Of a stretch of DNA of 64,000 nucleotides, positions 1 through 32,920 are shown in pieces. The first letter of the stretch is position 1. Each line of letters begins with the position of its first letter. The position numbers and the translations under genes were made by a program. The notes below the pieces were generated by a model. That model saw only the letters and a program-made list of their open reading frames with translations. It had not been told where the DNA came from and made no database searches. Source of the DNA: Okeania sp. KiyG1 (GTDB taxonomy: Bacteria > Cyanobacteriota > Cyanobacteriia > Cyanobacteriales > Microcoleaceae); contig NZ_BLZO01000198.1 of the NCBI RefSeq assembly GCF_014132355.1, positions 62,001 through 126,000 of the forward strand, given 5' to 3'.

Positions 1-11
1 AATCAAAATAT

Positions 12-239
12 ATGTCAATTGTAATTAACTTAACTCCTGAATTAGAAGTACGACTCCGGGAAAAATCAACTCAACAAGGACAAGATATTTCCCTAGTTGT
101 CAGTGAATTACTTGCCAGAGTATTAGACTGGGAAACTGTCGATACCGCAGAAGCTATTGAAGGTATTCAACAAGGATTAGATGATTTTGAAAATGGTCGA
201 TTTCGTTCTTTTGATGAGTTTGCTAAAGCACAACGTTAG
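12..239 (+). CDS. Antitoxin-like small protein (RHH type), orphan
   Basis: A 75-residue protein. The N-terminus (INLTPELEVRLREKSTQQG) has the look of ribbon-helix-helix or CopG-like antitoxins, and the C-terminal half (GIQQGL..ENGRFRSFDEF) matches the usual GI-x-x-GL...GR..S-x-E-E-F tail that binds a RelE/ParE-type toxin. No toxin gene follows, because the next gene is on the opposite strand, so it is an orphan unless the partner lies before the window. The family call is from sequence pattern only. Confidence 0.7.
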   Translation: MSIVINLTPELEVRLREKSTQQGQDISLVVSELLARVLDWETVDTAEAIEGIQQGLDDFENGRFRSFDEFAKAQR

Positions 240-255
240 ATTCAGTTATCAGTTA

Positions 256-492
256 TCAGTTATCAGCTTTTGATAGTTGAGTAATTATCTCTTCCCGTAA
301 CTCTTCAGCAGAATAATTAAAAATAGGGATTTTATATTGTCCTAAAACTTCGATAAAAGCTGATTTAGAATATCCTGCTAATTTTGCTGCTTTTCCTAAA
401 TAAATTTTATTAATTTCATACAACTTTATTGCTAAGAATAACTTAGCCTCATTTTCCGAAATTCCCATAGGAAGTTCACAAACTAAATTCAT
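256..492 (-). CDS. UPF0175 family protein
   Basis: 78 residues. The segment GKAAKLAGYSKSAFIEVLGQYKIPIFNY is the UPF0175 signature: a predicted helix-turn-helix with the pattern G-x-A-A-x-L-A-G-x-S-x-x-x-F followed by a short strand. Members are usually found as antitoxin-like regulators beside PIN or similar toxins in cyanobacteria. An AAGGAG ribosome-binding site stands about 6 bases before the ATG. The gene converges with the antitoxin-like gene at 12-239, and STRR copies (ttatcag) lie in between. No toxin partner is adjacent. Confidence 0.75.
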   Translation of the reverse strand: MNLVCELPMGISENEAKLFLAIKLYEINKIYLGKAAKLAGYSKSAFIEVLGQYKIPIFNYSAEELREEIITQLSKADN

Positions 493-713
493 AATTGCTC
501 CTTTTCAGTTATCAGTTATCAGCTTTGGATGGTTAAGTTATCAGTTTTCCCCGATCGACTGCCGATGTCTAATAATTGATAATTAATCCCTAAAGGTTTA
601 AAGCTTCTCCCTCCTAATAATTAATAATTAAGAAAAGAATTTTTAAACCTTTAAATTTCTATCTAACTTTATCAAGCTCTAATTATCAATTATCAATTAT
701 CCATTATCCATTA

Positions 714-1307
714 TCAGTTATCTCCTGCCAACTTATCTTCCGTCGCCAAAAAATTTCCTAAATCAAGCACAGGGGACTCTCTGGAAAAATCAGGATGTGT
801 ACCTTGATAAACAGTCGAACCATCAAATAACGCTTTAGTCATATCTACCATTGCCTGATAACCATCAACTTCCACATCCAAAGTTAACAATAACGGACAA
901 CTATCACCACTCAACTTTGTTTTCGCACAAATAACTTCTTGCTCTGGAGTATTAGGATCTCGGCGACTTTCTATGGAAAGTAAACCATCTTTGCGGAAAT
1001 ATTCTAAGCGCTCCTCTATTTTTTCACAACGTTTAGCAGGAGTCCAACCCCCTCCCATAGGTATCACAATACCTAACCAGGGATGTTTACCTTTATCATT
1101 GTCATACATTACCGTCCAAACTTTTTGATTTTTATTTCCATCCAGTTTTAATTCGCAGGAAAAGCGGTCTGTTTTTTTTACCAGAAGGGTAGGCCAATCT
1201 TTGACAAGATCGATGAAACCAACTACTTCCATTAATAATCCAGCTATGGGAATTATTACAACTAATATGAACTTTCCTATTCGTGCAATTTTTCCATTCT
1301 CTGCCAC
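714..1307 (-). CDS. COP23 domain protein
   Basis: 197 residues with an N-terminal membrane segment (about residues 10-32) and a COP23-type domain. This family was named after a circadian-oscillating membrane protein of cyanobacteria. Visible landmarks are RFSCE near residue 48, WTPAKRCEKIEERL near 88, VICAK near 126 and a DGYQAM-like stretch near 147, with paired cysteines typical of the family. The biochemical role is unknown. The stop codon abuts an STRR run (ttatcag). Confidence 0.75.
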   Translation of the reverse strand: MAENGKIARIGKFILVVIIPIAGLLMEVVGFIDLVKDWPTLLVKKTDRFSCELKLDGNKNQKVWTVMYDNDKGKHPWLGIVIPMGGGWTPAKRCEKIEERLEYFRKDGLLSIESRRDPNTPEQEVICAKTKLSGDSCPLLLTLDVEVDGYQAMVDMTKALFDGSTVYQGTHPDFSRESPVLDLGNFLATEDKLAGDN

Positions 1308-1667
1308 AAGTTTCTCCTCATCTATATATATTTATGAATATTTTTTGAGGGTATCTAAATAAACCCACAATATTTTACTCAATTTTTTGTGAGGAGTTTT
1401 CGGAAAGGTTGAACTATTTCAGTTATCAGTAAAAATATTGCTTGTCTTGTTAAAAATTTCAGATTTGATATACTGATAACTGATAACTGAAATGAGTATC
1501 TCACCCGAAAGACTTAAAGAATTACAAAATATAAAAGACTCTGAGATTGACACCTCTTTAGTGTAATGTAGCGAAATGAACAGAATTTTTACTTATGATA
1601 ACTTAAAAATTTATATACCTCCAAAAAGTTATAAGTTATTGATAAAAACTATAGTGCTAGAGTAAAA
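1308..1667. other. Intergenic with inverted STRR blocks
   Basis: AT-rich spacer between divergent genes. It holds two blocks of the ttatcag/ctgataa heptamer in opposite orientation (about 1418-1432 and 1472-1490), which form the arms of a roughly 70-bp foldback. No other gene or RNA is recognised. Confidence 0.5.
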
Positions 1668-2186
1668 ATGACTATTATTACGACTAGAGAAGCAGCTTTT
1701 TTATTAGGTATTTGTTGTCAGAGAGTTAGAGTTCTACTTTCTCAGGGAAGAGTAAAAGGGGCTTATAAACATAAAGGATTTTGGCGTATTCCTCTGTATG
1801 GCCAAATGCCTGTTGTTATACCAGGTACTAGAGGACCGGAAGGCGTCTGGTGTAAGAGGCTGCGACAAGCCCCCACAAGAATTCATGTCAATCAAAAGAA
1901 AATTCAAGCCAATGGTAAGAGAATCAACACAGATCCTCAAATGACTCCCGAGCAACTAATACCAGTGGTTTCCATGAAGCAGGGGAAACATAATTATTTA
2001 GGTTATCAGATGGAGATTCATGGTCCTTGTCGTATCGTATATAAACCTTACCACCCCTTAAGTTGTGGTGCTCATTTGTGGATTGAGACCTATCATCCGG
2101 TGCAATTTGTAGATACTCAGTTTAAACCTGCTACGGCGAAGCGAGCCTATAAATACGTTGAGAACCAGTATAAAAGAAAATTTTAG
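1668..2186 (+). CDS. HTH-domain protein of unknown function
   Basis: 172 residues. The first 45 residues (TREAAFLLGICCQRVRVLLSQGRVKGAYKHKGFWRIP) resemble an excisionase/MerR-type winged helix, in which a helix-turn-helix is followed by a basic G-x-W-x-I-P hairpin; this suggests DNA binding. The remainder, rich in His, Tyr and Lys, is not recognised. The HTH fits a regulator or a mobile-element accessory protein. There is no operon partner, and the next 770 bases hold dndD-derived repeats. Confidence 0.6.
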   Translation: MTIITTREAAFLLGICCQRVRVLLSQGRVKGAYKHKGFWRIPLYGQMPVVIPGTRGPEGVWCKRLRQAPTRIHVNQKKIQANGKRINTDPQMTPEQLIPVVSMKQGKHNYLGYQMEIHGPCRIVYKPYHPLSCGAHLWIETYHPVQFVDTQFKPATAKRAYKYVENQYKRKF

Positions 2187-2319
2187 CTATCCTTAATCGC
2201 TTTGTTTACTGAAGAAGATTGCTATTAATTTGTTCTATACATTATAACTGCTGTAAAACTCTGGTATTTGACTTTAACAGAGAAAAATTATGGTGATTGA
2301 ATTAAGGTGTGAGTAGAAA

Positions 2320-2953
2320 GAAAGTTTTTGCCTTACCAAAAATAGCTGATTTTCAGATTAATTCTATTTTTAAAGTACATACGAATACTTTTGCTATGAA
2401 TAACAAAAAATATGTTTTCAGCCGTCAGTAAAAAAGCTAAATGGTTACATTGGTAGATAAATTTTCTACCTCTGTGTGAGTAACTTCAGTTGAAGAAGCA
2501 GAGGGAAAAAAATTGCTTACCAAAAATATCTCATTTCCAGATTAGTTTGATTTTTTTGACAATCATATTTGAGTAAATATTCACATGGATAAGTAAATTT
2601 TTGACTCTTGTGTGGCTAACTTTAATTAAAGTGACAGAGGGAAAAATTTTTGCTTACCAAAAGTAGCCTCTTTCCAGGTTAGTTTAATTTTTTTGAGAAT
2701 CATATTTGAGTAAATACTCGTCAGCGATAGCCTACAAATTCTGGAGATTTTCTCCTTCTACCTAAACAACTTCAGTTGAAAAAGCAGAAGTCAAAAAGTT
2801 GCTGACCAGAAGTATTCTTTTTTTGAGATTTGTCTGATTTTTTTGAGAATCATATTCGAGTAAATATTAGTAAGCGATCGCCTCCAAAATTTTGAAGATT
2901 TTCGATTTTACCTCAGCAACTTTAATTAAAAAAGTAGAGATAAAAAAAGTGGC
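2320..2953. repeat. Degenerate tandem copies of the dndD 3' end
   Basis: About four tandem units lie directly downstream of the dndD stop. Each begins with a (g)cttacc block at about 2332, 2515, 2652 and 2801, and the last block at about 2951 is the dndD end itself, giving steps of 183, 137, 149 and 150 bp. Units share long identical stretches with dndD codons for its last 35-37 residues, for example TTTTTTTGAGAATCATATT (2987-3006 in dndD) and the agcgat(c/a)gcct(c/a)caaa block. Copies diverge with distance from the gene and carry stops, so they are not expressed as protein. The copied part encodes the conserved DndD tail ending in GYFW, so the gene is the likely source. Confidence 0.85.
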
Positions 2954-4936
2954 TTACCAAAAGTATCCTTTTTTGAGATTAGTTTGATTTTTTTGAGAAT
3001 CATATTCCAGCAAATACTCGTGAGCGATCGCCTCCAAACTACGGAGATTTTCTACCTCTAATTTACCAATCTCAGTATCAGTAGATAACAGAATAACTTG
3101 ATGACTAGCAGAAGGGAAATAACGTTCTACTAAATTCTGACGGTGAGATGAATCTAATCTACCTAAAGGTGTATCAATAGCGACGGGTAAATGTCTACCA
3201 GAAACCCTTGCCAAACCCCACAAAAACGAAATTGCTAAAAGCTGTTTTTCTCCAGCAGAAATGCGATGTTTAGGAACAATTTGCCCTTGATTATCGTAGA
3301 GAGAAAGAGCAAAATTATTAGTATCAATAGCCACACGATGTACCAAATCTGATTTATGCAAAAGATAGCGGAAACATTCAGTAACTTCCATCTCTAACTT
3401 ATTCAATTTTTTCAAAGTTAACTTCTCCTTAAATAGCTGCAAAGTTTTCTTCACTTTGCCAGAAGATTCAATGATATTTTGAATATTGTGACGTTCGATA
3501 GTTTCATCAGTATAACTAAATAATTCCTTCTTAGTTTGAGTAATAGCATCGTCCATTTTTTTACGCTCGCGATCGCTATTTTCACAAGCTATCTGTATCC
3601 TAGCTAATTCAGTTTGTGCCTCCTCTAAAGCAGTTTCCAAAATTTCATAAGCTTCCGGAGATGCTGCACTTACCAACTGCTTTTCCAAAACATTAATTTC
3701 CACTTCAAAATCTTTGAGACGAGTTAAATTTTCCCGAGCATTTTTCCGACAATTTTCAATTTCATAGCGCAACAAATTTTCTAGTAAAGTTAACGCCTCC
3801 TCATCTGCCAATAACCAAGATTCATCACTTTGATTAATATCCTCTTCAATCATCAGATTTTCTTGATTAAGAAACGTTTGAATTTTACTAATTTTGCCAG
3901 CAGGAATAGACAACTCATTCAGGTAATTAACTAAACGTCGGTCTCTTTCCTGAAAAGCATCCAAAGCTATTTCTGCTTCATGGCGTAAAATCTCTACATC
4001 ACCCTGAGAACTTGCTTGTTCCAAAAGAGGAGAAATTAAAGCTAGAGGTAAAGCTCCCGCAGCAAGTTCAATCATTTCCTGACGAGCATTCTCCATATCT
4101 AACTCTATATCTTTAAACTCTTGTTCTAACTGACTTCTCTCCGCAGCAATTTTTCCCCCTTCCGAAACAAATTTTCTCATGGCTTTTTGCTGTTTTTGTT
4201 GAGCCTTTTTTAACTGCTTTTGCAAATCTGCTAATTTTTCCGTAGCAACTTCCAAATCTGTCTTTTGTTGATGGAGTTTTTGTTCAATTTCTTCTAAATT
4301 TTTTAATTCTGTAGTTTTAGCAATTTGTTTCTTTTTCCGAGTCACCAAAATATCTAAATCTGTTGCCAGACGTTCAGCTAATTCCAGTCCTAATAATGAT
4401 TGAATTGCATCTACAACCAAAGGTGGAGGAATTTCTAGTTCAGCCAACTCTTTTACCTGTTCTCCATCAAAGAGAAATAGATTAGAAATTCCCAAAGGTA
4501 AGAGATTTTCTATATATTCATCCCAGGCATTTGCTAAGTAGGAATCAGGCCATTCACCATCAAGAATTCCCAGACTATCTTTGCCATCTTTCGGATTTTT
4601 TTCCCAGGTACGAACTACGCGATATTCTACAAGTTGGTCATCTTGAATATGTTCAAAAGCTAATTCAATGCGAGTTTTTTCTGTAGGGGGAGTATTACGA
4701 TTTACGCATTGAGAAAGAAAGTCGCCATAAGTTAAGTTTCCTCTAGTTGAACATTGGGCGCGATGACCATAAAGTGCGAGGCGAATAGCATCTAAAAGAG
4801 TAGTTTTTCCTCCTCCATTCATACCTCCAAATAAGATGATGGGACGGGGGCGATCGGTAAGGGTAGGGCGGAGGTTTATTGTTTGTTTACCGGAGTATGG
4901 TCCGAAATTTTGTAAGACGAGTTCTAGGAAAATCAT
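2954..4936 (-). CDS. dndD: DNA phosphorothioation protein DndD (SMC-like ATPase)
   Basis: 660 residues. This is the ATPase of the DNA sulfur-modification machinery that acts with DndC and DndE to place sulfur in the DNA backbone. Walker A is GGMNGGGKTT (37-46), the DndD hallmark FLFDGEQ is at about 154-160, long coiled coils run over about 195-530, the ABC signature ISAGEKQ is near 560, and Walker B VAIDTPLG is near 580. The C-terminus ends in GYFW as in other DndD proteins. It is full length and intact. It is co-oriented with dndC but separated from it by a 3.6-kb repeat region, an unusual gap for genes normally adjacent. Its own 3' end is duplicated downstream. Confidence 0.93.
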   Translation of the reverse strand: MIFLELVLQNFGPYSGKQTINLRPTLTDRPRPIILFGGMNGGGKTTLLDAIRLALYGHRAQCSTRGNLTYGDFLSQCVNRNTPPTEKTRIELAFEHIQDDQLVEYRVVRTWEKNPKDGKDSLGILDGEWPDSYLANAWDEYIENLLPLGISNLFLFDGEQVKELAELEIPPPLVVDAIQSLLGLELAERLATDLDILVTRKKKQIAKTTELKNLEEIEQKLHQQKTDLEVATEKLADLQKQLKKAQQKQQKAMRKFVSEGGKIAAERSQLEQEFKDIELDMENARQEMIELAAGALPLALISPLLEQASSQGDVEILRHEAEIALDAFQERDRRLVNYLNELSIPAGKISKIQTFLNQENLMIEEDINQSDESWLLADEEALTLLENLLRYEIENCRKNARENLTRLKDFEVEINVLEKQLVSAASPEAYEILETALEEAQTELARIQIACENSDRERKKMDDAITQTKKELFSYTDETIERHNIQNIIESSGKVKKTLQLFKEKLTLKKLNKLEMEVTECFRYLLHKSDLVHRVAIDTNNFALSLYDNQGQIVPKHRISAGEKQLLAISFLWGLARVSGRHLPVAIDTPLGRLDSSHRQNLVERYFPSASHQVILLSTDTEIGKLEVENLRSLEAIAHEYLLEYDSQKNQTNLKKGYFW

Positions 4937-5126
4937 TTTTTAGGGAATAGGGAATAGGGAATAGGGAATAGGGAGTAGGAGGAAAGGTAGTGGGTTAATG
5001 AAGTCAGAAGTTAGAAGTTATTTTTGTAACGGGGATTTGAGTTCCGCTCCAAAAATATTGCGCCTTAAAAGGCGGGGTTTTAGACCCATATTATTTTGAT
5101 AATTAACTTGATTTTTTTATTCTTAG
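4937..5126. repeat. STRR and spacer upstream of dndD
   Basis: A 7-bp tandem repeat (gggaata, about 4942-4975) begins just upstream of the dndD start. AT-rich spacer follows before the large tandem array. No gene is seen. Any dndD-proximal promoter would have to lie here or in the array. Confidence 0.6.
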
Positions 5127-8100
5127 AATTTACCTTTTTCGGTAGGAGGTAAGTTTGACAAATAGAATTTTCTTGTCAACCAACGCACGATTTTTTGCCT
5201 TTGACTTAGACTGAGAAAAAGGGAGGTTTGCCACAGATGAGTTTGCCAGATAAATTTTCATAACTTTCTAGTCATTGTGGAATTTTTCCCAGTAGAAGGT
5301 AAGTCTGACCAATCCAATTTTCTTATAATTTTTGCCTTTGACTTAGACTGAGAAAAAGGGAGGTTTCCCACAGATGAGGTAAACAGAGAAATTTTCATAA
5401 CTTTCTAGTCATTGTGGAATTTTTTCCGGTAGGAGGTAAGTCTGACCAATCCAATTTTCTTCTCAAGTAACAGATAATTTCTGCCTTTAACTTAAACTGG
5501 GAAAAACAGAGGTTTCCCACAGATGAGGTAAAGAGAGAAATTTTCATAATTTTCTAGTTATTGTGGAATTTTTCCCAGTAGGAGGTAAGTCTGACAAATC
5601 CAATTTTCTTGTAATTTTTGCCTTTGACTTAGACTGAGAAAAAGGGAGGTTTCCCACAGATGAGGTAAACAGAGAAATTTTCATAACTTTCTAGTCATTG
5701 TGGAATTTTTCCCAGTAGAAGGTAAGTCTGACAAATCCAATTTTCTTCTCAAGTAACAGATGATTTTTGCCCTTAACTTAGACTGGGAAAAACAGAGGTT
5801 TCCCACAGATGAGGTAAACAGAGAAATTTTCATAATTTTCTAGTCATTGTGGAACTTTTCCCAGTAGGAGGTAAGTCTGACCAATCCAATTTTCTTGCCA
5901 AGCAACGCCCGAATTTTTGTCTTTGACTGAGACTGAGAAAAACAGAGGTTTCCCAGGGATGAGATTTCCAGATAAATTTTCATAACTTTCTAGTCATTGT
6001 GGAACTTTTCCCAGTAGGAGGTAAGTCTGACCAATCCAATTTTCTTGTAATTTTTGCCCTTAACTTAGACTGGGAAAAACAGAGGTTTCCCACAGATGAG
6101 GTAAACAGAGAAATTTTCATAATTTTCTAGTCATTGTGGAACTTTTCCCAGTAGGAGGTAAGTCTGACCAATCCAATTTTCTTGCCAAGCAACGCCCGAA
6201 TTTTTGTCTTTGACTGAGACTGAGAAAAACAGAGGTTTCCCAGGGATGAGATTTCCAGATAAATTTTCATAATTTTCTAGTTATTGTGGAATTTTTCCCA
6301 GTAGAAGGTAAGTCTGATAAATCCAATTTTCTTCTCAAGTAACAGATAATTTTTGCCTTTAACTTAGACTGGGAAAAACAGAGGTTTTCCACAGATGAGT
6401 TTTCCCGATAAAATTTACATAAACTGCCATTCATTGTGGAATTTTCCCAGGAGGTAAGTTTTACAAATCGAATTTTCTTGCCAAGCAACGCCCGAATTTT
6501 TGCCTTTGACTTAGACTGGGAAAAACAGAGGTTTCCCACAGATGAGGTAAAGAGAGAAATTTTCATAATTTTCTAGTCATTGTTGAACTTTTCCCAGTAG
6601 GAGGTAACTCTGACAAATCGAATTTTCTTGCCAAGCAACGCCCGAATTTTTGTCTTTGACTGAGACTGAGAAAAACAGAGGTTTCCCAGGGATGAGATTT
6701 CCAGAGAAATTTTCATAACTTTCTAGTCATTGTGGAATTTTTTCCGGTAGGAGGTAAGTCTGACAAATCCAATTTTCTTCTCAAGTAACAGATAATTTTT
6801 GCCCTTAACTTAGACTGGGAAAAACAGAGATTTCCCACAGATGAGGTAAACAGATAAATTTTCATAATTTTCTAGTTATTGTGGAATTTTTCCCAGTAGA
6901 AGGTAAGTCTGATAAATCCAATTTTCTTCTCAAGTAACAGATAATTTTTGCCTTTAACTTAGACTGGGAAAAACAGAGGTTTTCCACAGATGAGTTTTCC
7001 CGATAAAATTTACATAAACTGCCATTCATTGTGGAATTTTCCCAGTAGGAGGTAAGTTTTACAAATCGAATTTTCTTGCCAAGCAACGCCCGAATTTTTG
7101 CCTTTGACTTAGACTGGGAAAAACAGAGGTTTCCCACAGATGAGGTAAAGAGAGAAATTTTCATAATTTTCTAGTCATTGTTGAACTTTTCCCAGTAGGA
7201 GGTAACTCTGACAAATCGAATTTTCTTGCCAAGCAACGCCCGAATTTTTGTCTTTGACTGAGACTGAGAAAAACAGAAGTTTCCCAGGGATGATATTTCC
7301 AGAGAAATTTTCATAATTTTCTAGTCATTGTTGAACTTTTCCCAGTAGAAGGTAAGTCTGACAAATCCAATTTTCTTCTCAAGTAACAGATAATTTTTGC
7401 CCTTAACTTAGACTGGGAAAAACAGAGATTTCCCACAGATGAGGTAAACAGATAAATTTTCATAATTTTCTAGTTATTGTGGAATTTTTCCCAGTAGAAG
7501 GTAAGTCTGATAAATCCAATTTTCTTCTCAAGTAACAGATAATTTTTGCCTTTAACTTAGACTGGGAAAAACAGAGGTTTTCCACAGATGAGTTTTCCCG
7601 ATAAAATTTACATAAACTGCCATTCATTGTGGAATTTTCCCAGTAGGAGGTAAGTTTTACAAATCGAATTTTCTTGCCAAGCAACGCCCGAATTTTTGCC
7701 TTTGACTTAGACTGGGAAAAACAGAGGTTTCCCACAGATGAGGTAAACAGAGAAATTTTCATAACTTTCTAGTCATTGTGGAATTTTTTCCAGTAGAAGG
7801 TAAGTCTGACAAATCCAATTTTCTTGTAATTTTTGCCTTTGACTTAGACTGAGAAAAACAGAAGTTTCCCAAAGATAAGGTAAAGAGAGAAATTTTCATA
7901 ACTTTCTAGTCATTGTGGAATTTTTCCCGGTAGAAGGTAAGTCTGAGAAATATAATTTTCTTGCCAAGCAACGCCCGAATTTTTGCCTTTGATTTAGACT
8001 TGCCAAAATAGAGGTTTTCCACAGATGAGTTTTCCCGATAAAATTTACATAAGCTCCCATTCATTGTAATTTTCCCAGTAGGAGGTAAGTTTTACAAATC

Positions 8101-8452
8101 GAATTTTCTTGCCAAGCAACGCCCGAATTTTTGCCTTTGACTTAGACTGAGAAAAACAGAGGTTTCCCACAGATGAGGTAAACAGAGAAATTTTCATAAC
8201 TTTCTAGTCATTGTGGAATTTTTCCCGGTAGAAGGTAAGTCTGACAAATCCAATTTTCTTCTCAAGTAACAGATAATTTTTGCCTTTAACTTAGACTGGG
8301 AAAAACAGAGGTTTTCCACAGATGAGTTTTCCCGATAAAATTTACATAAGCTCCCATTCATTGTAATTTTCCCAGTAGGAGGTAAGTTTTACAAATCGAA
8401 TTTTCTTGCCAAGCAACGCCCGAATTTTTGCCTTTGACTTAGACTGAGAAGT
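5127..8452. repeat. Tandem array of about 22 units derived from the dndC 3' end
   Basis: A 3.3-kb array fills the dndC-dndD gap. Using the tag cattgtgg as a ruler, successive units fall at 5280, 5417, 5566, 5703, 5852, 6002, 6139, 6289, 6439, 6585, 6735, 6884, 7034, 7183, 7333, 7482, 7632, 7781, 7918, 8068, 8216 and 8366. The steps are 137 or 146-150 bp; a 12-13 bp block (ccaagcaacgccc or ctcaagtaacag) accounts for the two size classes. A higher-order repeat of four units (about 596-598 bp) recurs from 6267, 6862 and 7460 with near identity. Read on the minus strand, units encode RKLDWSDLPPTGKSST or close variants, which match DndC residues 500-515 (KQLSWANMKFSGQSSA) codon for codon. No long frame stays open. 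Most units keep a hairpin, CTGGGAAA/TTTCCCAG. Confidence 0.88.
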
Positions 8453-8524
8453 TGTTAGTAATTTTTGCATTTTTCCCATAGTAGAAAAGATAAATTTTCC
8501 AGATAAAGTTTCATATTTTTATTT

Positions 8525-8577
8525 CTCCTCTACTCCTCTACTCCCCTACTCCCCTACTCCCCTACTCCCCTACTCCC
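8525..8577. repeat. STRR, octamer ctactccc
   Basis: About six copies of an 8-bp unit (ctactccc) abut the dndC stop codon. The same unit recurs at 63010-63090, next to the panB stop. Confidence 0.85.
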
Positions 8578-10134
8578 TCACTCAATATCTGCCGAACTTT
8601 GACCAGAAAACTTCATGTTTGCCCAACTTAATTGTTTAATTTTATCTGAGACTTTTCCTTTCTCGACAGCTTCTTTGAGGTCTCTTTTATTATGAGCGTT
8701 TTGAATAGCTTCTTCCTTGGAACGAGAACTTGTTTCAAAACATTGTTCGAGACTTTCATAAATCTTATATCGGTGAGACTTAATATAATATTGCCGCTCT
8801 GTATCTAACAGTTTTGCCATAAGTTCAAGGTGCATTTCATCCCCATTACATATTTCTTCTAATACTGACCATTCATCACTACCTAAAAGACTGATTCCTG
8901 CACCAGGACGACAGTCTTTAAATTCCTCTCCTGTTACTTCTTCATATATACGAGGTAAACTATCATCAAACTCGTGTTTTTCCTCTAACCAAATGCGTCT
9001 AATTTCACTCAGTTCTTCCAGAGAAATGAGAGTAATATCTCGCATATTTTCTGGAGCAGTTTCACGAATTTGTGTTTGAGCTTCTAACAGTTTTCTCAGT
9101 AAAGTATCTCGCCATTCTTTTTTATATGGACCAGGAATTGGTTCTACAGAAACTTCACCATCTATATTCCGTTCAAATAGTTGAACTGTACCCCAAATTC
9201 GCCGAAAGTCTCTTTTATCTCTATCAGAAATATCTAGTTCCCGACGCAAATCTACAAGAGGTTGTAACCATTCTTTTTCTTCATCATTTTGAATCATTGC
9301 TGACATAGATTTATCACTATCTACTAAGGTGCAAACCCAGCATCCAAAACGAGAACTTCCACAACTAGGAGTAGAAGTATCAACTACTAACGGACATTCA
9401 TTATCTTCCGTCGCACCTCGATACATTGCTAGTAAATCTTTATTACTATTTCCCCAAGGATTTTCCCACTGCATTAAATATAGCCAAACTTCATCAGTTC
9501 GCCAGTCTTCAATAGGAGAATAAATTAAAGAATTAAGTAAATTGGCATTAGGACTAAGGCGTTCCCGAACTCGTTTTTCTTCTAGTCTTTTCATTGTTCT
9601 AGCGCGGTTAAGACTTTCAGTTTTACGAGTACCTAAAACTAGGATAACTTCTCCATTAGTTCGTACAGCATTACGAATGAAAAGATTAGATGGTTCAATT
9701 TTTAAACGTCCCGTACACCATCTAAATTTCAGACGGGGTGCGGGATAACCTTTACCAATTAAACCTACCCAATATGTATATTGAATATCTGGTTGTAGAA
9801 GGTGAGTTTCTATTGGCATTTTCTGTTTTTGGGCAACTCTCTCAATGTTTTTTAGAGATTGTTTAACCCAAGCAGAAACATAAGGATTTTCTACTCGTGT
9901 ATCAGTGGTAATGACATAGATTTTTTTTGTTCTTTTTTCTGCTGGCAAAGCAGCGATAGCATTCCATATAAGTTGCAAAACTGCTGTACTATCTTTTCCT
10001 CCAGAATATCCAACAATTAAGGGAATTTCATCAAGGCAATATAATTCTTGAATTTCTATAGTTAGCTTTTCTATATCTTTGATTAGTTCAGCGGTTGTCC
10101 GCTCTGGAAAAAGAGATTTTTGTATTCCTACCAT
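8578..10134 (-). CDS. dndC: DNA phosphorothioation protein DndC
   Basis: 518 residues. This is a PAPS-reductase-like PP-loop ATPase that activates and transfers sulfur during backbone phosphorothioation. The PP-loop SGGKDS is at residues 44-49. Cysteines expected for the Fe-S cluster and sulfur relay are Cys140 (RWCTGR), Cys247 (NECP), Cys258, Cys265 and Cys268 (SCGSSRFGCWVC). Length and motifs are those of a full DndC. The last residues are the source of the array at 5127-8452. The gene is co-directional with dndD; the broken SBD-HNH gene ends 46 bases upstream of its start. No dndA is present, so a housekeeping cysteine desulfurase would have to supply sulfur. Confidence 0.95.
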   Translation of the reverse strand: MVGIQKSLFPERTTAELIKDIEKLTIEIQELYCLDEIPLIVGYSGGKDSTAVLQLIWNAIAALPAEKRTKKIYVITTDTRVENPYVSAWVKQSLKNIERVAQKQKMPIETHLLQPDIQYTYWVGLIGKGYPAPRLKFRWCTGRLKIEPSNLFIRNAVRTNGEVILVLGTRKTESLNRARTMKRLEEKRVRERLSPNANLLNSLIYSPIEDWRTDEVWLYLMQWENPWGNSNKDLLAMYRGATEDNECPLVVDTSTPSCGSSRFGCWVCTLVDSDKSMSAMIQNDEEKEWLQPLVDLRRELDISDRDKRDFRRIWGTVQLFERNIDGEVSVEPIPGPYKKEWRDTLLRKLLEAQTQIRETAPENMRDITLISLEELSEIRRIWLEEKHEFDDSLPRIYEEVTGEEFKDCRPGAGISLLGSDEWSVLEEICNGDEMHLELMAKLLDTERQYYIKSHRYKIYESLEQCFETSSRSKEEAIQNAHNKRDLKEAVEKGKVSDKIKQLSWANMKFSGQSSADIE

Positions 10135-10180
10135 TTTTCAATACTCCTAAAATTTTTTAATTTATTCTGTATTTTTATGT

Positions 10181-11151
10181 TTATGAGATAAATACATTTT
10201 GGCGATGCCATTGTAAAGCTTCTATTCTGGGGAAAGATTCTTTTTCATTTGGCAACCAAAGCTGATTACTATTAAATTCCTTCATTGGTTTAGAATTTGG
10301 TGATTATTCTAAGAAATTATTGGAAACGATGATTTTATAATCATCAGTTATGGTAAATAAACCTTTATCGAATGCCCAATGATGATTTTTACACAGTGAT
10401 ATGCCGTTATTTATTCTATTGTCATAAAATTTGGCAAATGGTTTGATATGCGCTCCATCTACAATGTTTTGCTTGATTGACATGGTGACTTTCATTCCAC
10501 AAAAAGCACATTTATAGTTATAGGTATGTACAACTGCTTTACGAAAGATACCATCTCTAACTACAGATTTTCTGAGATATGATTTAGGTTGTTTTTTCTC
10601 TTGGTTTAATAAATTAATTGAGCTTTCTTCCTCATCATCCTCTTTTTGGAATCTTTCATTAATTGCTAGAAGTTCTTTAATATCTTTTGATTGGCTGAAA
10701 ACCAAGTTGCAATTAGTACATCTATTAATTCTTTTCTATAATTTTTGTCTTGCAATAGTTCAAAAAGTTCTGGGTCTAAACTGGCATACTCAACTACTTC
10801 TTTCAACTTTTTAACGGAACTTGGTTGCTTTAAAGAATTATTTTTAGATTCAATATGCCAAAATCCTTCGCTCTGTAGATAGAAAAAAGGAAGGTGTAAA
10901 TTATCTTTACCTTGATAAGTACCAGAAGATAAAATATCCCAATGTTTATTAAAGGTATCAATTAATTGCTCTGAAGCAGCTATCTGATTATTTTCAATGA
11001 AACCTTGTGCAATTAAATCAATTACAGACAAAATTAAAATGGGCTTATATTCTGCATTCGGACCTAGTCTTTTACTTGTCTTAAGTTCGGTAAAACGTTG
11101 ACAGTAGTATGCTAAATTTTTTTCCCTATGTAATTCTTGATTTTCACTCAT
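10181..11151 (-). pseudogene. Sulfur-binding-domain HNH endonuclease, broken
   Basis: The original frame runs about 323 codons. The N-terminal part (11151 to about 10690) has the layout of sulfur-binding domains of PT-dependent McrA-type enzymes such as ScoMcrA: YKPILILSVIDLI near residue 36 and LPFFYLQSEGFWHI near residue 85. The C-terminal part carries an HNH nuclease (CAFCG, then DGAHIKPF, NNGISLCKNHH, AFDKG). A one-base loss in an A-run near 10690 shifts the frame between the two domains (the halves overlap at 10666-10705). An in-frame TAA at 10304-10306 cuts off a tail that continues open to 10183 and ends WHRQNVF, as in relatives. Both lesions would inactivate it. Such enzymes cut phosphorothioated DNA, so loss beside dndC makes sense. 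Confidence 0.8.
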
Positions 11152-12213
11152 TTATAGCACTAGCTAAAACATCTGTATTTTCACTATTTATTTCTGATAA
11201 ACCAGTAGATTGAGTAAATAGGTAGGCAAAATTAAATCTAAAATAACTATCAAAGTTAAATTTACCATAACTATTCTAATTCCTCCTTTTTTAACTAGCT
11301 ATCAGCTATTAGCTATCAGCCTAAAAATTTGTACATAGACTTCTATAAGTTGTTTAATTTGATGAGGGGTTTAAATCCCCTTCTAAAAAACTGATTGCTG
11401 AACTGCTATTTGCGGAGCATTCCGTCAGGAAACGCTTTTTAAATTGCAAAATTAAGTTGATTAGTTTCTCAGTTATACCTGCTACTTTCATTAATTGATA
11501 ATGAATAATGGATAATTACTTCTGGTTAAAACCGTTACGAAATTGAATATAAGCAAATTTGATTTCTTCTCTTGGTCGATTGGATATGGTTAGGAAACCC
11601 ATCAACCCCACCCAACGGGTGCGCTCCTAAGATCGACCGCTTTTTTATCCTTTAAAGGAGAGGCTTTAAACCTAGATTCGATTAATTATCAATTATCCAT
11701 TTTAATCTTATACTTATACAAAATAAATAAGTTTTTAATCCCTTTTTTTGCAGAAATAAATAAACTGTATATTAGATACTATTTCTATTTTCAGTAAGGA
11801 TGTATTCGTCAACTAAAATAGCTGATCTTCAAATTTATTAAGTAGTAAGTTTTAAGAAAAATACTAATAAATTATTCATTTTTCTCTAAACACTATGCTC
11901 TGTGAAAACTGGCTTTTAATAGCTGAATGGCTATTATTTTGATGGTATAGCACTACGCATTAAGATTAGGACAGCTAAGAAACTTCAAAATATTACAGTT
12001 AAAATTTTTGACTCTAGCTGATAGCTGAATGTTGTTTGCGGAGCATGACAAACGGAAATGCTTATAGCTATCAAAAGACATCAATATTCATGCCTCATGT
12101 TCCATCGGTTAGTATTGACATAATAAATAGTATATGATACAAAAATTACTATACAATTAACAATTATACTGACTCAAAAGTTTTTAAAAACGTTTGTTGA
12201 CAAAAATTTATAT
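11152..12213. other. Gene-free spacer with foldback repeats
   Basis: No convincing gene. It contains a degenerate GTAAGC-type MITE-like stretch (about 11298-11440, with tagctatcagctattagc and gcggagcattccg), a copy of the cctctcctt...aaaggagagg foldback family (about 11490-11700), and a second gcggagcatg...aaatgc fragment at about 12010-12068. Confidence 0.5.
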
Positions 12214-12393
12214 ATGTAGTGATTTTCAAAAAAATTAAAAATATTTCCTAACATCAGCGATGAAAAGACCAATAAACCCACCTCAGAAATAGCAAAAGAA
12301 ATTTTAGAAAATGATAATCGAGAAAGAGAAGCGATCGCCATCCTTTTAGACAAACATATAGGCAAAGATGACAGACTTTTAGTACAAAAAACC

Positions 12394-13860
12394 ATGATGG
12401 GAAAAACCGAAGCTTATATAGGTTCCGTCACTCTAGAATGGTTAGATAGTCGTGTACGTTTTGCCTCTCAATTACCATTATTTCGGCAAAAATTTGATGT
12501 AGAAACAGATAATGTAATTCGTGACGCAGAAACAATAGATGAAATTCAACAACGACCTTTAGATTGGTCTCGTCAAGCTCCATTAACCCTATATTTAGCA
12601 ACAAGAAAAGCACATAAATTTCCAGCAGTATTAGTAGTAATTAGTCCTAGTTGGGTAGATAATCCCAAAGCAGAAGAATGGAATAAAAATGGTGAAGCAA
12701 ATAAATCTGCTACTGATTTTTTACCCCTAGATTCAACCGGAAAAGTAGGATTATTAGACCTACGTTTAGAAGTAGCAGTATTTGCCCTAGACGGTCAACA
12801 TCGACTCATGGGAATTCAAGGATTAATGGAATTAATCAAAACAGGTAGGTTGCCTAGATATAACAAACAAAAAAAACCAGTAGGTGCAGCTATTAACATT
12901 GATGATTTAGCGGAAACCCATCATATTGAATTGCCAGAATTACAAAAATTAGCTTACGAACAAATAGGTATAGAATTTATTCCCGCAGTAGTAAAAGGAG
13001 AAAGTAGAGCACAAGCACGACGGAGAGTTAGGTCAGTTTTTGCTCATGTAAATTTGACTGCCGTAAAATTAAGTAAAGGGCAGTTGGCATTATTAAATGA
13101 GGACGATGGGTTTGCTATTGTGGCTAGAAAAGCAGCAATTTATCATCCTTTATTAAAAGAGAAAGATGATAGAAACCCACGGGTGAATTGGGATAGTGCA
13201 ACTGTGGCAACTAAGTCTACTGTTTTAACAACTCTTCAGGCAATTCAAGAAATGTCTGAAAGATATTTAAAACCTCGTTATCCTCATTGGAAACCTTCAG
13301 ATAGAGGTTTAATTCCCATGCGTCCTGAAGAAGAAGAATTAGAAGAGGGGCTAGAGGAATTTATGTTGTTTTGGAATTATTTATCTAATTTACCTAGTTA
13401 TTCAAGATTAGAAAATGGTGCCGAAACTCCAGAATTGAGAAGATTTAGTTTTGAGATAAAACCAGGAGAAGGTCATGTTTTATTTCGCCCCGTTGGACAA
13501 ATTGCTTTTGCTGAAGCTCTAGGAATTTTAATATACAAAAAAGGATTTTCTCTCGAGGAGGTTTTTCAGAAATTAAATAAGTATGATGTGGATGGTGGTT
13601 TGAGTGGAATAGAATTTTCTGACTCTATTTGGTATGGGGTTTTATATGATTTTAATCGGAAGCGAATGTCGGTAGCTGGGAGAGATTTAGCGATGAGATT
13701 GTTTATCTATATATTAGGTGGAATTTCTGACAAAATGGAACGAGCAGAAATTCGTCGGGAGTTGGCAGAAGCAAGGAGAGTTGGGGATAATCAAGCTGTA
13801 GATTTTCAAGGTAAGTTTGTGGAATTAAAAAAGGTAGGGTTGCCGAAAATTTTGTCCTAG
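12394..13860 (+). CDS. dndB: DGQHR-domain protein, DndB-like
   Basis: 488 residues from the first available ATG. DGQHR at residues 133-137 is the defining motif of the DndB family, whose characterised members repress or modulate phosphorothioation. The coding frame clearly extends upstream of this ATG (12223-12393 is open and reads like protein: TSEIAKEILENDNRERE...LLVQKTMMGKTEAY), but no ATG, GTG or TTG is available before an in-frame TAG-TGA at 12217-12222. The native start was probably lost or frameshifted; a GTG at 12219 in another frame could be the old start. No ribosome-binding site precedes the ATG at 12394. It is divergent from dndC. Calling it DndB rather than another DGQHR protein rests on this context. 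Confidence 0.75.
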   Translation: MMGKTEAYIGSVTLEWLDSRVRFASQLPLFRQKFDVETDNVIRDAETIDEIQQRPLDWSRQAPLTLYLATRKAHKFPAVLVVISPSWVDNPKAEEWNKNGEANKSATDFLPLDSTGKVGLLDLRLEVAVFALDGQHRLMGIQGLMELIKTGRLPRYNKQKKPVGAAINIDDLAETHHIELPELQKLAYEQIGIEFIPAVVKGESRAQARRRVRSVFAHVNLTAVKLSKGQLALLNEDDGFAIVARKAAIYHPLLKEKDDRNPRVNWDSATVATKSTVLTTLQAIQEMSERYLKPRYPHWKPSDRGLIPMRPEEEELEEGLEEFMLFWNYLSNLPSYSRLENGAETPELRRFSFEIKPGEGHVLFRPVGQIAFAEALGILIYKKGFSLEEVFQKLNKYDVDGGLSGIEFSDSIWYGVLYDFNRKRMSVAGRDLAMRLFIYILGGISDKMERAEIRRELAEARRVGDNQAVDFQGKFVELKKVGLPKILS

Positions 13861-14748
13861 AGTGTTAGAAAAAAAGGCAAGGTCATTTCAGTTATCAGTT
13901 ATCAGTTATCAGTTATCAGTACCTCTGCAATAAGGAGGCTTGAAATAAGGAATATTCTATTTTTTTCTCCCCTTAAAAGGATAGGTTTTAGACCACAATT
14001 TTTCGTTGAGGAAGAGTTGATTGATGTTTTGAATTTTTTCAAATTCTTTAGACTAGCTTTAATGCAATGAGCTACAAAAATTTATCTGCAATGCAATGAA
14101 AGCTGTTTTATACCAAGGGTGAAAAAAGAATGCTTTTGTGAAGTGAAACTTCAATTATTAAGTAATTAACACAAGCGCAATGACATTTTTGATAATTAGT
14201 ACACCAGGAGCGTATTAATAATTCTTATGTTTACCGAAAAATTCAGGTATAAAGCCTCTCCATTTATGGAGAAAAAAGAAAAAAATCCTTTGATCCAATC
14301 CTCTTATTTATAAGAAGAGTTCATTAATTGATAATTGATAATTACCTCTAGTTAAAACCGTTACGGAATTGAATATAAGGAAATATCCTAGCACTTTTTT
14401 CCCCTTAAAAGAGGAGGCTTTAAACCAGAATTATTTAATTATTAATTATTCGGTAACTAGACAGTGCAAAGTTCTTGGAATAACTATTGCTAGCTAAGGC
14501 TTTCAGCGATCTAAAGGTTAAAAACTCTTTATTCACAGCTGTAAGTACTGTAAGCCTTTTCCAGTAATACTTTCAGTATTCAAAGCAAATAGTTTTTTGG
14601 CAGAACTTTGTACTCTCCAGTTCGGTAATTCTAAATTCTAAATTCTAAATTCTAAATTCTAAATTCTAAATTCTAAATTCTAAATTCTTGAATTCTCCCC
14701 CACTCCCCTACTCAAGAATCAGTAATACTACGCTACAGAATATTATTT
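13861..14748. other. Gene-free region rich in STRRs and foldbacks
   Basis: Holds a ttatcag STRR (about 13886-13920), an 'acctctgcaataaggaggcttg' type fragment after it, a copy of the cctctcctt/aaaggagagg foldback family at about 14320-14455, and an aattcta heptamer STRR of about nine units at 14628-14690. No coding signal is seen. Confidence 0.6.
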
Positions 14749-31880: not shown

Positions 31881-31924
31881 TCAGCTAAAATTTAGCTGAT
31901 AGTAAATAGTCATTCATCTGTTTC

Positions 31925-32920
31925 ATAGAAGCGATCGCTCTACTGAAAAACTCTACACATTATCATCCTGTGAAGCACCTAAAAAATCCCCAAGGTTTTT
32001 TGCCTTGCATTGCTCAAATAATTGTGAGATAATTTAACTATAAGGGTTAACTTGCCTATACGCTTGACTTTTTATTCAATCAAGAAATATATATGACATA
32101 CTCAACACTTACTACCACAAATAGTCTAGAGAAATAAAAGACACAAATATAGCCAGACTTGAGGTGAATTTTATTAGTTATCTGTATAGAAGCGATCGCT
32201 CTACTGAAAAACTCTACACATTATCATCCTGTGAAGCACCTAAAAAATCCCCAAGGTTTTTTGCCTTGCATTGCTCAAATAATTGTGAGACAATCTAACT
32301 ATAAGGGTGAACTCGCCTATACACTTGACTTTTTATTCAATCAAGAAATAGAAATACTCAGCACTCACTGCCACAAATAGCCATGAGAAATAGAGGTGAT
32401 TCTTATAAGTTATTTGTTGATAGCGATGTAGCTACTGCACTTGCTCCGCCAACGCTCCATTGAAAAACCGGACAACTTTTTATTTTGTGAAGCACCTAAA
32501 AAATCGCCAAGGTTTTTTGCCTTGCATTGCTCAAATAATTGTGAGAGAATTTAACTATAAGGGTTAACTTGACCCTACGCTTGACTTTTTATTCAATCAA
32601 AGAATATATGATGAAATACCCAGCACTCTCTAGCACAAATAGTCTGGAAAAATAAAAGACACAAATATAGCCAGAGTTGAGGTGGTTTTTATTAGTCCTC
32701 TATATAGAAGCGATCGCTCTAGTGCAGGATGGCAGAAATAACTAACCAGTTACAAATGACTTCCGCGTAGCGACTCTATTGATAAAACCCCACAACTTTT
32801 CATTTTGTGAAGCACCTAAAAAATCGCCAAGGTTTTTTGCCTTGCACTCTCCAAATAATTGTGAGATAATTTAACTATAAGGGTTAACTCGCCCCTCCGC
32901 TTGACTTTTTATTCAATACA
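31925..32920. repeat. Four-copy 256-320 bp tandem repeat with hairpin
   Basis: Four units, tagged by tgaagcacc at 31971, 32232, 32488 and 32808 (steps 261, 256 and 320). Each has a HIP1-containing block, the hairpin CAAGG-TTTTTTG-CCTTG preceded by aaaaaatc(c/g)c, caaataattgtgag, ctataaggg and ttgactttttattcaa. On the minus strand the hairpin is followed by a T-run, as in an intrinsic terminator. Unit 4 is longer because of a nested 55-bp element (32719-32775) shared with 41147-41235. No protein is encoded. Confidence 0.8.

Follow-up and report, generated by a model that had tools for sequence, protein, structure and literature searches.

Results and Discussion

In the window (the whole stretch of 64,000 nucleotides that was analysed), dndC and dndD are separated by a gap of 3,641 bp, most of which is occupied by a head-to-tail array, the arrangement that defines a minisatellite or VNTR. 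The array is probably a locus-specific, non-coding bacterial minisatellite, which would have formed by neutral turnover from a segment duplicated at the 3' side of dndC. Rather than a new system or device, it most likely consists of leftover DNA moved by recombination. A second tandem array, downstream of dndD, consists of copies derived from the 3' end of that gene.

Structure of the array between dndC and dndD

The array lies on the minus strand, running from 8512 to 5127 (about 3.4 kb), and is divided by nhmmer into 24 segments: 22 full units of 135–149 bp and two partial units of 101 and 49 bp. The initial annotation, which had counted about 22 units of 137–150 bp in this gap, is therefore borne out. 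TRF reports a period of 150, with 21.2 copies and 82% matches, over positions 5325–8450. The unit is non-coding and its copies are decaying, with a minimum unit-to-unit identity within the array of about 74%. A higher level of organization is also present. The four-unit blocks of 598 bp at 6264–6861 and 6862–7459 are identical in 587 of 601 aligned columns (98%), showing that a four-unit block was duplicated recently. The stretch at 7460–8057, by contrast, is identical to the preceding block in only 537 of 611 columns; the three near-identical blocks of about 600 bp that had been placed at 6267, 6862 and 7460 are thus really two and a part.

Between the stop codon of dndC and the array lies a short simple repeat, which is absent from the relatives L041, L043, L045 and G153 (L numbers denote named dnd loci, G numbers genomes); there, likeness to the unit starts at most 22 nt past the stop. 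The window as a whole is rich in simple repeats of 7–8 nt (such as TCAGTTA, AATTATC and CTCCCCTA), more than 30 being given by TRF. Another array, of period 256 and 2.9 copies, is found between two reading frames at 31924–32669.

Table 1. Positions of the repeats and of the neighbouring dnd genes in the window
Feature	Position	Strand	Basis or remark
Second tandem array, decaying dndD 3'-end copies	2333..2905	-	nhmmer E 8e-14, 9e-19 and 8e-5 for the first three copies
Individual dndD-end copies	~2905-2805, 2779-2655, 2583-2518, 2371-2333	-	fourth by ungapped BLAST
Source segment of the dndD copies	~3060-2912	-	
dndD, 660 aa	2954..4936	-	TIGR03185, 703 bits, cutoff 246 (NCBIfam)
Stretch between array and dndD	4948..5090	.	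matches the 3' end of the L042 IscB-like frame and following sequence, 74.7% over 178 columns
Tandem array, 22 full units and two partial	5127..8512	-	nhmmer segmentation; TRF
Part of unit quoted in the initial annotation, peptide RKLDWSDLPPTGKSST	5848..5899	-	
Higher-order repeat, two adjacent 598-bp four-unit blocks	6264..7459	-	587/601 columns; block from 7460 partial, 537/611
Short simple repeat, 8-nt unit CTCCCCTA, dndC stop to array	8525..8577	.	TRF
dndC, 518 aa, DNA phosphorothioation sulfurtransferase	8578..10134	-	TIGR03183, 693 bits, cutoff 290 (NCBIfam)
Sulfur-binding-domain HNH endonuclease-like gene, two overlapping frames	10304-10705, 10666-11151	-	between dndB and dndC
dndB, divergent	12394-13860		Pfam DndB

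Occurrence in the genome and in relatives

The cyanobacterial genome to which the window belongs measures 11 Mb, and among named relatives its DndC is closest to that of Okeania (O. hirsuta, 98%). A search of this genome with the unit gave 24 matches at E ≤1e-5, all of them in the dndC–dndD array, and a next best value of 0.04 (150 of 11,891 first-look candidates were scored). BLAST with one unit likewise found 23 places in the same genome, all inside the array; it found none in 194 other genomes sampled from the order, where few candidates were scored per genome and the diverged copies of G153 were missed. Occurrence of the repeat far from dndC, which had been named as evidence against a link with that gene, was not seen, significant matches being confined to the dndC–dndD locus. 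A dispersed repeat family was rejected on the same distribution of significant matches in the own genome.

A sequence model built from an alignment of units matches eight of 62 genomes of the family at E 0.001, each on one contig: five of six in the own genus and three of seven in the sister genus (8/13 over both). The matching set comprises the window and G153, together with L040, L041, L046 and L047, which belong to the own genus, and L043 and L045, which are labelled as the sister genus but titled Okeania; L040, L041, L043, L045, L046 and L047 are the loci of genomes G227, G228, G239, G240, G231 and G229, respectively. Since the match coordinates are those of the named loci, the array lies between dndC and dndD in all eight genomes. 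The presence of the array behind dndC in related genomes, proposed as a check in the initial annotation, is thus confirmed for seven relatives (the six named loci and G153), with other numbers of units.

The unit HMM has 7 matches in the gap of L040, 17 in L041, 13 in L043, 10 in L045, 4 in L046 and 13 in L047, and one further match in L041 starts 34 nt before the end of dndC. It has none in the gaps of the near relatives L042, L044, L048 and L049, nor in any gap outside those six loci, 46 of the 80 named dnd loci having been examined. Copy number therefore varies between relatives at one locus, from 4–17 matches in six of them to 24 segments in the window and none in four; the genome collections hold one genome per species. 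The nearest neighbour of a unit belongs to the same array in 51 of 65 cases. This holds for 21 of 22 units in the window, 11 of 14 in L041, 9 of 9 in L043 and 8 of 11 in L047, and for 2/4 in L040, 0/2 in L045, 0/1 in L046 and 0/2 in G153. The varying unit number, the resemblance within genomes and the recent copy of a four-unit block together point to turnover by recombination or slippage. Under the mechanism that we propose, an ancestor of the Okeania/Trichodesmium clade would have undergone a head-to-tail duplication of some 149 bp on the 3' side of dndC; copies would then have been gained and lost by unequal recombination or slippage, and the units homogenised within each lineage while otherwise drifting without selection.

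In L042 (Okeania sp. SIO1I7) a frame of 438 aa with RRXRR and HNH domains (L042:9872-11188), which we take to be IscB-like, is found in place of the units. The Trichodesmium locus L048 keeps the flank that follows dndC (judged by eye) and 30 nt of the flank preceding dndD, at 90%.

The array shares with bacterial minisatellites and VNTRs its head-to-tail non-coding units, its single locus and its higher-order blocks, as well as a copy number that varies between relatives and units that are most alike within a genome. It is unlike them in its long unit (135–150 bp), its length of 3.4 kb and its position inside a conserved gene pair. A search of titles and the starts of abstracts found no report of the dndC–dndD array among the matches listed.

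Origin of the unit

The initial annotation had derived the array from the coding end of a dnd gene, namely dndC. This was right in kind for dndD (see below), but for dndC the tests disagree, and on sequence comparison the evidence that the unit is the 3' coding end of dndC is suggestive. The quoted peptide, RKLDWSDLPPTGKSS(T), is indeed encoded in the units starting at 6186, 6047 and 5899, and close forms of it in the units at 5461 and 5324; Trp is missing from the remaining 17 full units. Out of 7,527 windows taken from 17 proteins of the window, the DndC tail gives the quoted 16-mer its top ungapped match (33, with 22 for the next). When translated units were compared with shuffled ones, the scores of the five Trp units were reached by 0–3.3% of shuffles. 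Of the 17 units that lack Trp, none does better than the 2% level and 5 attain the 5% level, in these cases by other alignments. The case is a warning that repeats of this sort can contain peptide-like matches, here in 5 of 22 units, that mimic gene fragments.

Two accounts of the founding segment have to be weighed. In one, it extended from around codon 500 of dndC, across the stop, as far as about +77, with later decay of its coding part; we hold this to be plausible, with doubt a little stronger than belief. In the other, to which we give almost even credence, the unit is purely intergenic, the founding segment starting just past the dndC stop, and the likeness to the tail is due to chance. 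The phase of the likeness speaks for the coding end. Of 150 phases, the proposed register comes first by DNA identity (83 unit anchors in eight arrays, and likewise in the seven arrays other than the window), and by BLOSUM it ranks first over the eight arrays and second when the window is left out; no phase could be assigned to 13 of the 65 units. In own-species tests the best phase was 0, or -1 in L041, in five other arrays, an agreement that counts against a purely intergenic unit. Among 2,898 coding 57-mers, those reaching the score of the dndC tail number 4 for the window array, 34 for all eight arrays and 62 for the seven arrays besides the window; none of 23 further gene ends reaches it. 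When each array was instead compared with controls from its own dndC and dndD, the tail score was reached by 13/665 in L041, 30/663 in L047, 43/663 in L040, 78/665 in L043 and as many as 173/665 in L045, which weakens the case. Against its own gap, the dndC tail was equalled by dndC-body controls in 3 of 23 cases in L041, 4 in L040, 8 in L047, 16 in L046 and 17 in both L043 and L045. A local DNA alignment of the unit consensus with dndC gave no significant match, in line with the intergenic account, and the best match lay outside the tail, elsewhere in dndC; the unit HMM had no hit to the dndC tail of the window at E 10.

In L041, none of 137 controls equals the extension of the flank likeness into the coding end, and in L048 6 of 137 do, as expected of a coding-end origin; such an extension was not seen in L043, L045 or G153, where 24, 27 and 15 of 137 controls reach it. 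A pairwise version, which has little power owing to an indel, gave 2 and 7 of 40 in L041, 40 and 2 of 40 in L048, and 40/40 throughout in L043, L045 and G153. In a profile–profile comparison of the dndC tail with the unit, 55 of 400 controls reach the score, a result that suits the intergenic account, and the optimum again ends at codon 500. The extension tests covered five loci and the profile–profile comparison four, picked by eye for a unit-like flank; L044 and L049, which are also without a simple repeat after dndC, were left out of both. In four loci the distance from codon 500 to the first unit is 142–143 nt, which would favour the coding end and lies within 5–8 nt of both the 148–150 and the 136 spacing; we put the probability of coming as near as 8 nt to 149 by chance at about 1 in 9. 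Later units are spaced by 148–149 in 7 of 10 cases in L043 and by 136 (six) or 148–150 (three) in L041, and irregularly in L045 and G153. The intergenic account is in turn favoured by the point at which likeness begins: self-matches start about 22 nt past the stop in L041, L043 and L045, and HMM matches at +11 in L043 and L045 and at +22 in G153. The units still resemble the post-stop flank closely and the coding tail far less; a single joint duplication would predict the opposite, unless the flank had been refreshed by conversion. The dndC-tail tests share data and ancestry, so their results cannot be multiplied.

The motif TTCCACA, found in many units, occurs among 12 dndC tails compared only in that of L041, where it is possibly a short conversion tract from the array to the gene.

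Some dndC ends outside the array-bearing group also resemble the unit. In Crocosphaera watsonii WH 8501 (L074), which has no array, the unit HMM matches from -51 to +44 around the dndC stop (L074:5125-5220) with 8.8 bits (E 0.004 for the locus; 11.0 bits with a wider HMM), a score reached by none of 331 random stretches. This match, like that in L041, spans the stop and so speaks against a purely intergenic unit. Its clearest part is the flank, CTGTTTTTCC.AGTC near +30, which may be an old conserved element after dndC, and the register of its coding part is about 14 nt off that of the initial annotation. Taken together, the dndC ends of 39 outgroup loci have higher scores than random stretches (p 0.018 and 0.0016), in favour of the coding end, but the effect is carried by four of them, L074, L048, L049 and L051 (three being Trichodesmium), and the registers of L074, L049 and L051 are not that of the initial annotation. 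The remaining 35 of the 39 ends have no positive unit-HMM score. The outgroup matches support a founding segment at the 3' side of dndC, and less so its coding part. A further point for the coding end is the parallel in dndD.

Copies of the dndD 3' end

Downstream of dndD, its final 150 nt are found again on the same strand (nhmmer E 9e-19, 8e-14 and 8e-5). The repeated segment consists of the last ~107 nt of the gene, stop included, and ~42 nt of flank, 149 nt in all. Such copies are also present in five relatives: nine further matches, mostly spaced by 149 or 138, in L043, and one or two in L040, L041, L042 and L045. BLAST found none in L044, L046 or L047, the last having a weak HMM match, and single 34-nt matches to the dndD end are found in L048 and L050. 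The copies are decaying, several having stops or a lost frame, and their mismatches by codon position (85/537, 53/545 and 93/544) are distributed more flatly than those between orthologues (0.077, 0.047 and 0.199).

In the repeat pair of a diversity-generating retroelement, differences are concentrated at adenines. Such an element was rejected here, the dndD copies being changed at 62 of 660 A and 88 of 276 G.

The units of the two arrays have no likeness to each other, 69 of 300 shuffles reaching their score. Both are about 149 bp long, with variants of 136–138.

The dndD array is like a partial tandem gene duplication, in that a gene end and its flank are repeated downstream in the same orientation. 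The dndC–dndD array differs from that class in that its coding origin is only suggestive.

Possible function and assembly

A functional array, acting as a regulatory spacer, as an element for transcript processing or as clustered sites for the sulfur-modifying enzymes, would fit the constant position of the repeat in 8 of the 13 genomes from the two sister genera. We consider it improbable in view of the following results. No base pair of a conserved RNA fold was predicted over 38 units on the one strand tested, no Rfam family matches positions 1–14000 of the window at the gathering score, and between 2000 and 12500 neither promoter-like sites (32, with 32.5 expected) nor terminator-like sites (4, with 6.6 expected) exceed the shuffled expectation. 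The number of full units ranges from 0 to 22, and L042 has the IscB-like gene instead. From the missing fold, the Rfam result, the promoter and terminator scan and the range of unit numbers, the array is read as satellite-like, probably neutral DNA with no selected role. The missing fold may leave room for a role at the level of the DNA, and the persistence at one spot in two GTDB genera, together with the two unlike arrays of ~149 bp, might be a sign of a selected role or of some local mechanism. An array of structured RNAs was rejected, the 38 units having neither a consensus nor a covarying fold on the strand tested.

That the length of the array is partly a product of assembly is less probable still. 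Near-identical blocks of 598 bp are hard for short reads, and the gaps of G153 and L043 contain N; independent assemblies, however, share the unit family and differ in the lengths and sequences of their arrays.

Tandem arrays elsewhere in the genome

This genome was sampled over 1.44 Mb, containing 767 reading frames of at least 120 aa and 58.7% coding sequence. A non-coding tandem copy was found within 700 bp of 10 of 757 gene 3' ends and 15 of 741 5' ends, and tandem arrays of period at least 40 make up 59,452 of the 594,163 non-coding bases sampled (10%). These rates of arrays and gene-end copies are perhaps too high, since the sample, mostly the first 20 kb of contigs, leans to contig ends, where assemblies break at repeats; some of the frames counted are also repeat-borne. 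A general preference for a spacing of 149 bp was not found, most of the other gene-end copies being spaced differently. The dndC–dndD array is among the longest seen, yet of a kind that is common in this genome.

In Trichodesmium IMS101 about 40% of the genome is non-coding, and the share not derived from pseudogenes is called enigmatic in the accessible text of PMC3655545. The repeat-rich, low-coding genomes of Trichodesmium, as presented there, are like the present one in their large intergenic share (c. 40% in IMS101); the parts of that review available to us do not describe arrays of gene ends, and the window genome is nearest to Okeania. About 40% of the sequence sampled here lies outside reading frames of at least 120 codons, and this is the setting of the dnd arrays. 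The tandem capture of gene ends with their flanks might steadily supply genomes of the Okeania/Trichodesmium clade with non-coding DNA, in which case the dnd operon would show it twice, with unlike units of ~149 bp. We think this rather unlikely. Such capture would proceed by seeding, amplification, homogenisation and decay and, if true, it would account in concrete terms for some of the intergenic DNA called enigmatic in the accessible text of PMC3655545. The dnd locus offers a comparative series: one locus in eight related genomes, with arrays of differing lengths and stages of decay and a conserved gene end as a ruler. Together with the second array at the next gene, the series allows the rise, spread and decay of gene-end copies to be measured.

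Neighbouring genes at the dnd locus

As judged from their arrangement, 3.6 kb apart, dndC and dndD may have lost their co-transcription. It is rare for a nuclease that should cut sulfur-modified DNA to lie beside the modifying genes, this being the case for <3.6% of such enzymes according to the part of PMC7461809 available to us. The HNH endonuclease-like gene between dndB and dndC scores below the cutoff of NF045808, its copy in L041 reaching 120.8 of 180 bits. It is a single open frame of 323–330 aa in L040 (6987-7955), L041 (6972-7943) and L046 (6855-7844), is present as shorter or broken pieces in L042–L045, L047 and L049, and has no match in L048, L051 and G153. Its N-terminal part matches the solved structure of SBDHga1 (8h0l) with E 6.7e-20.
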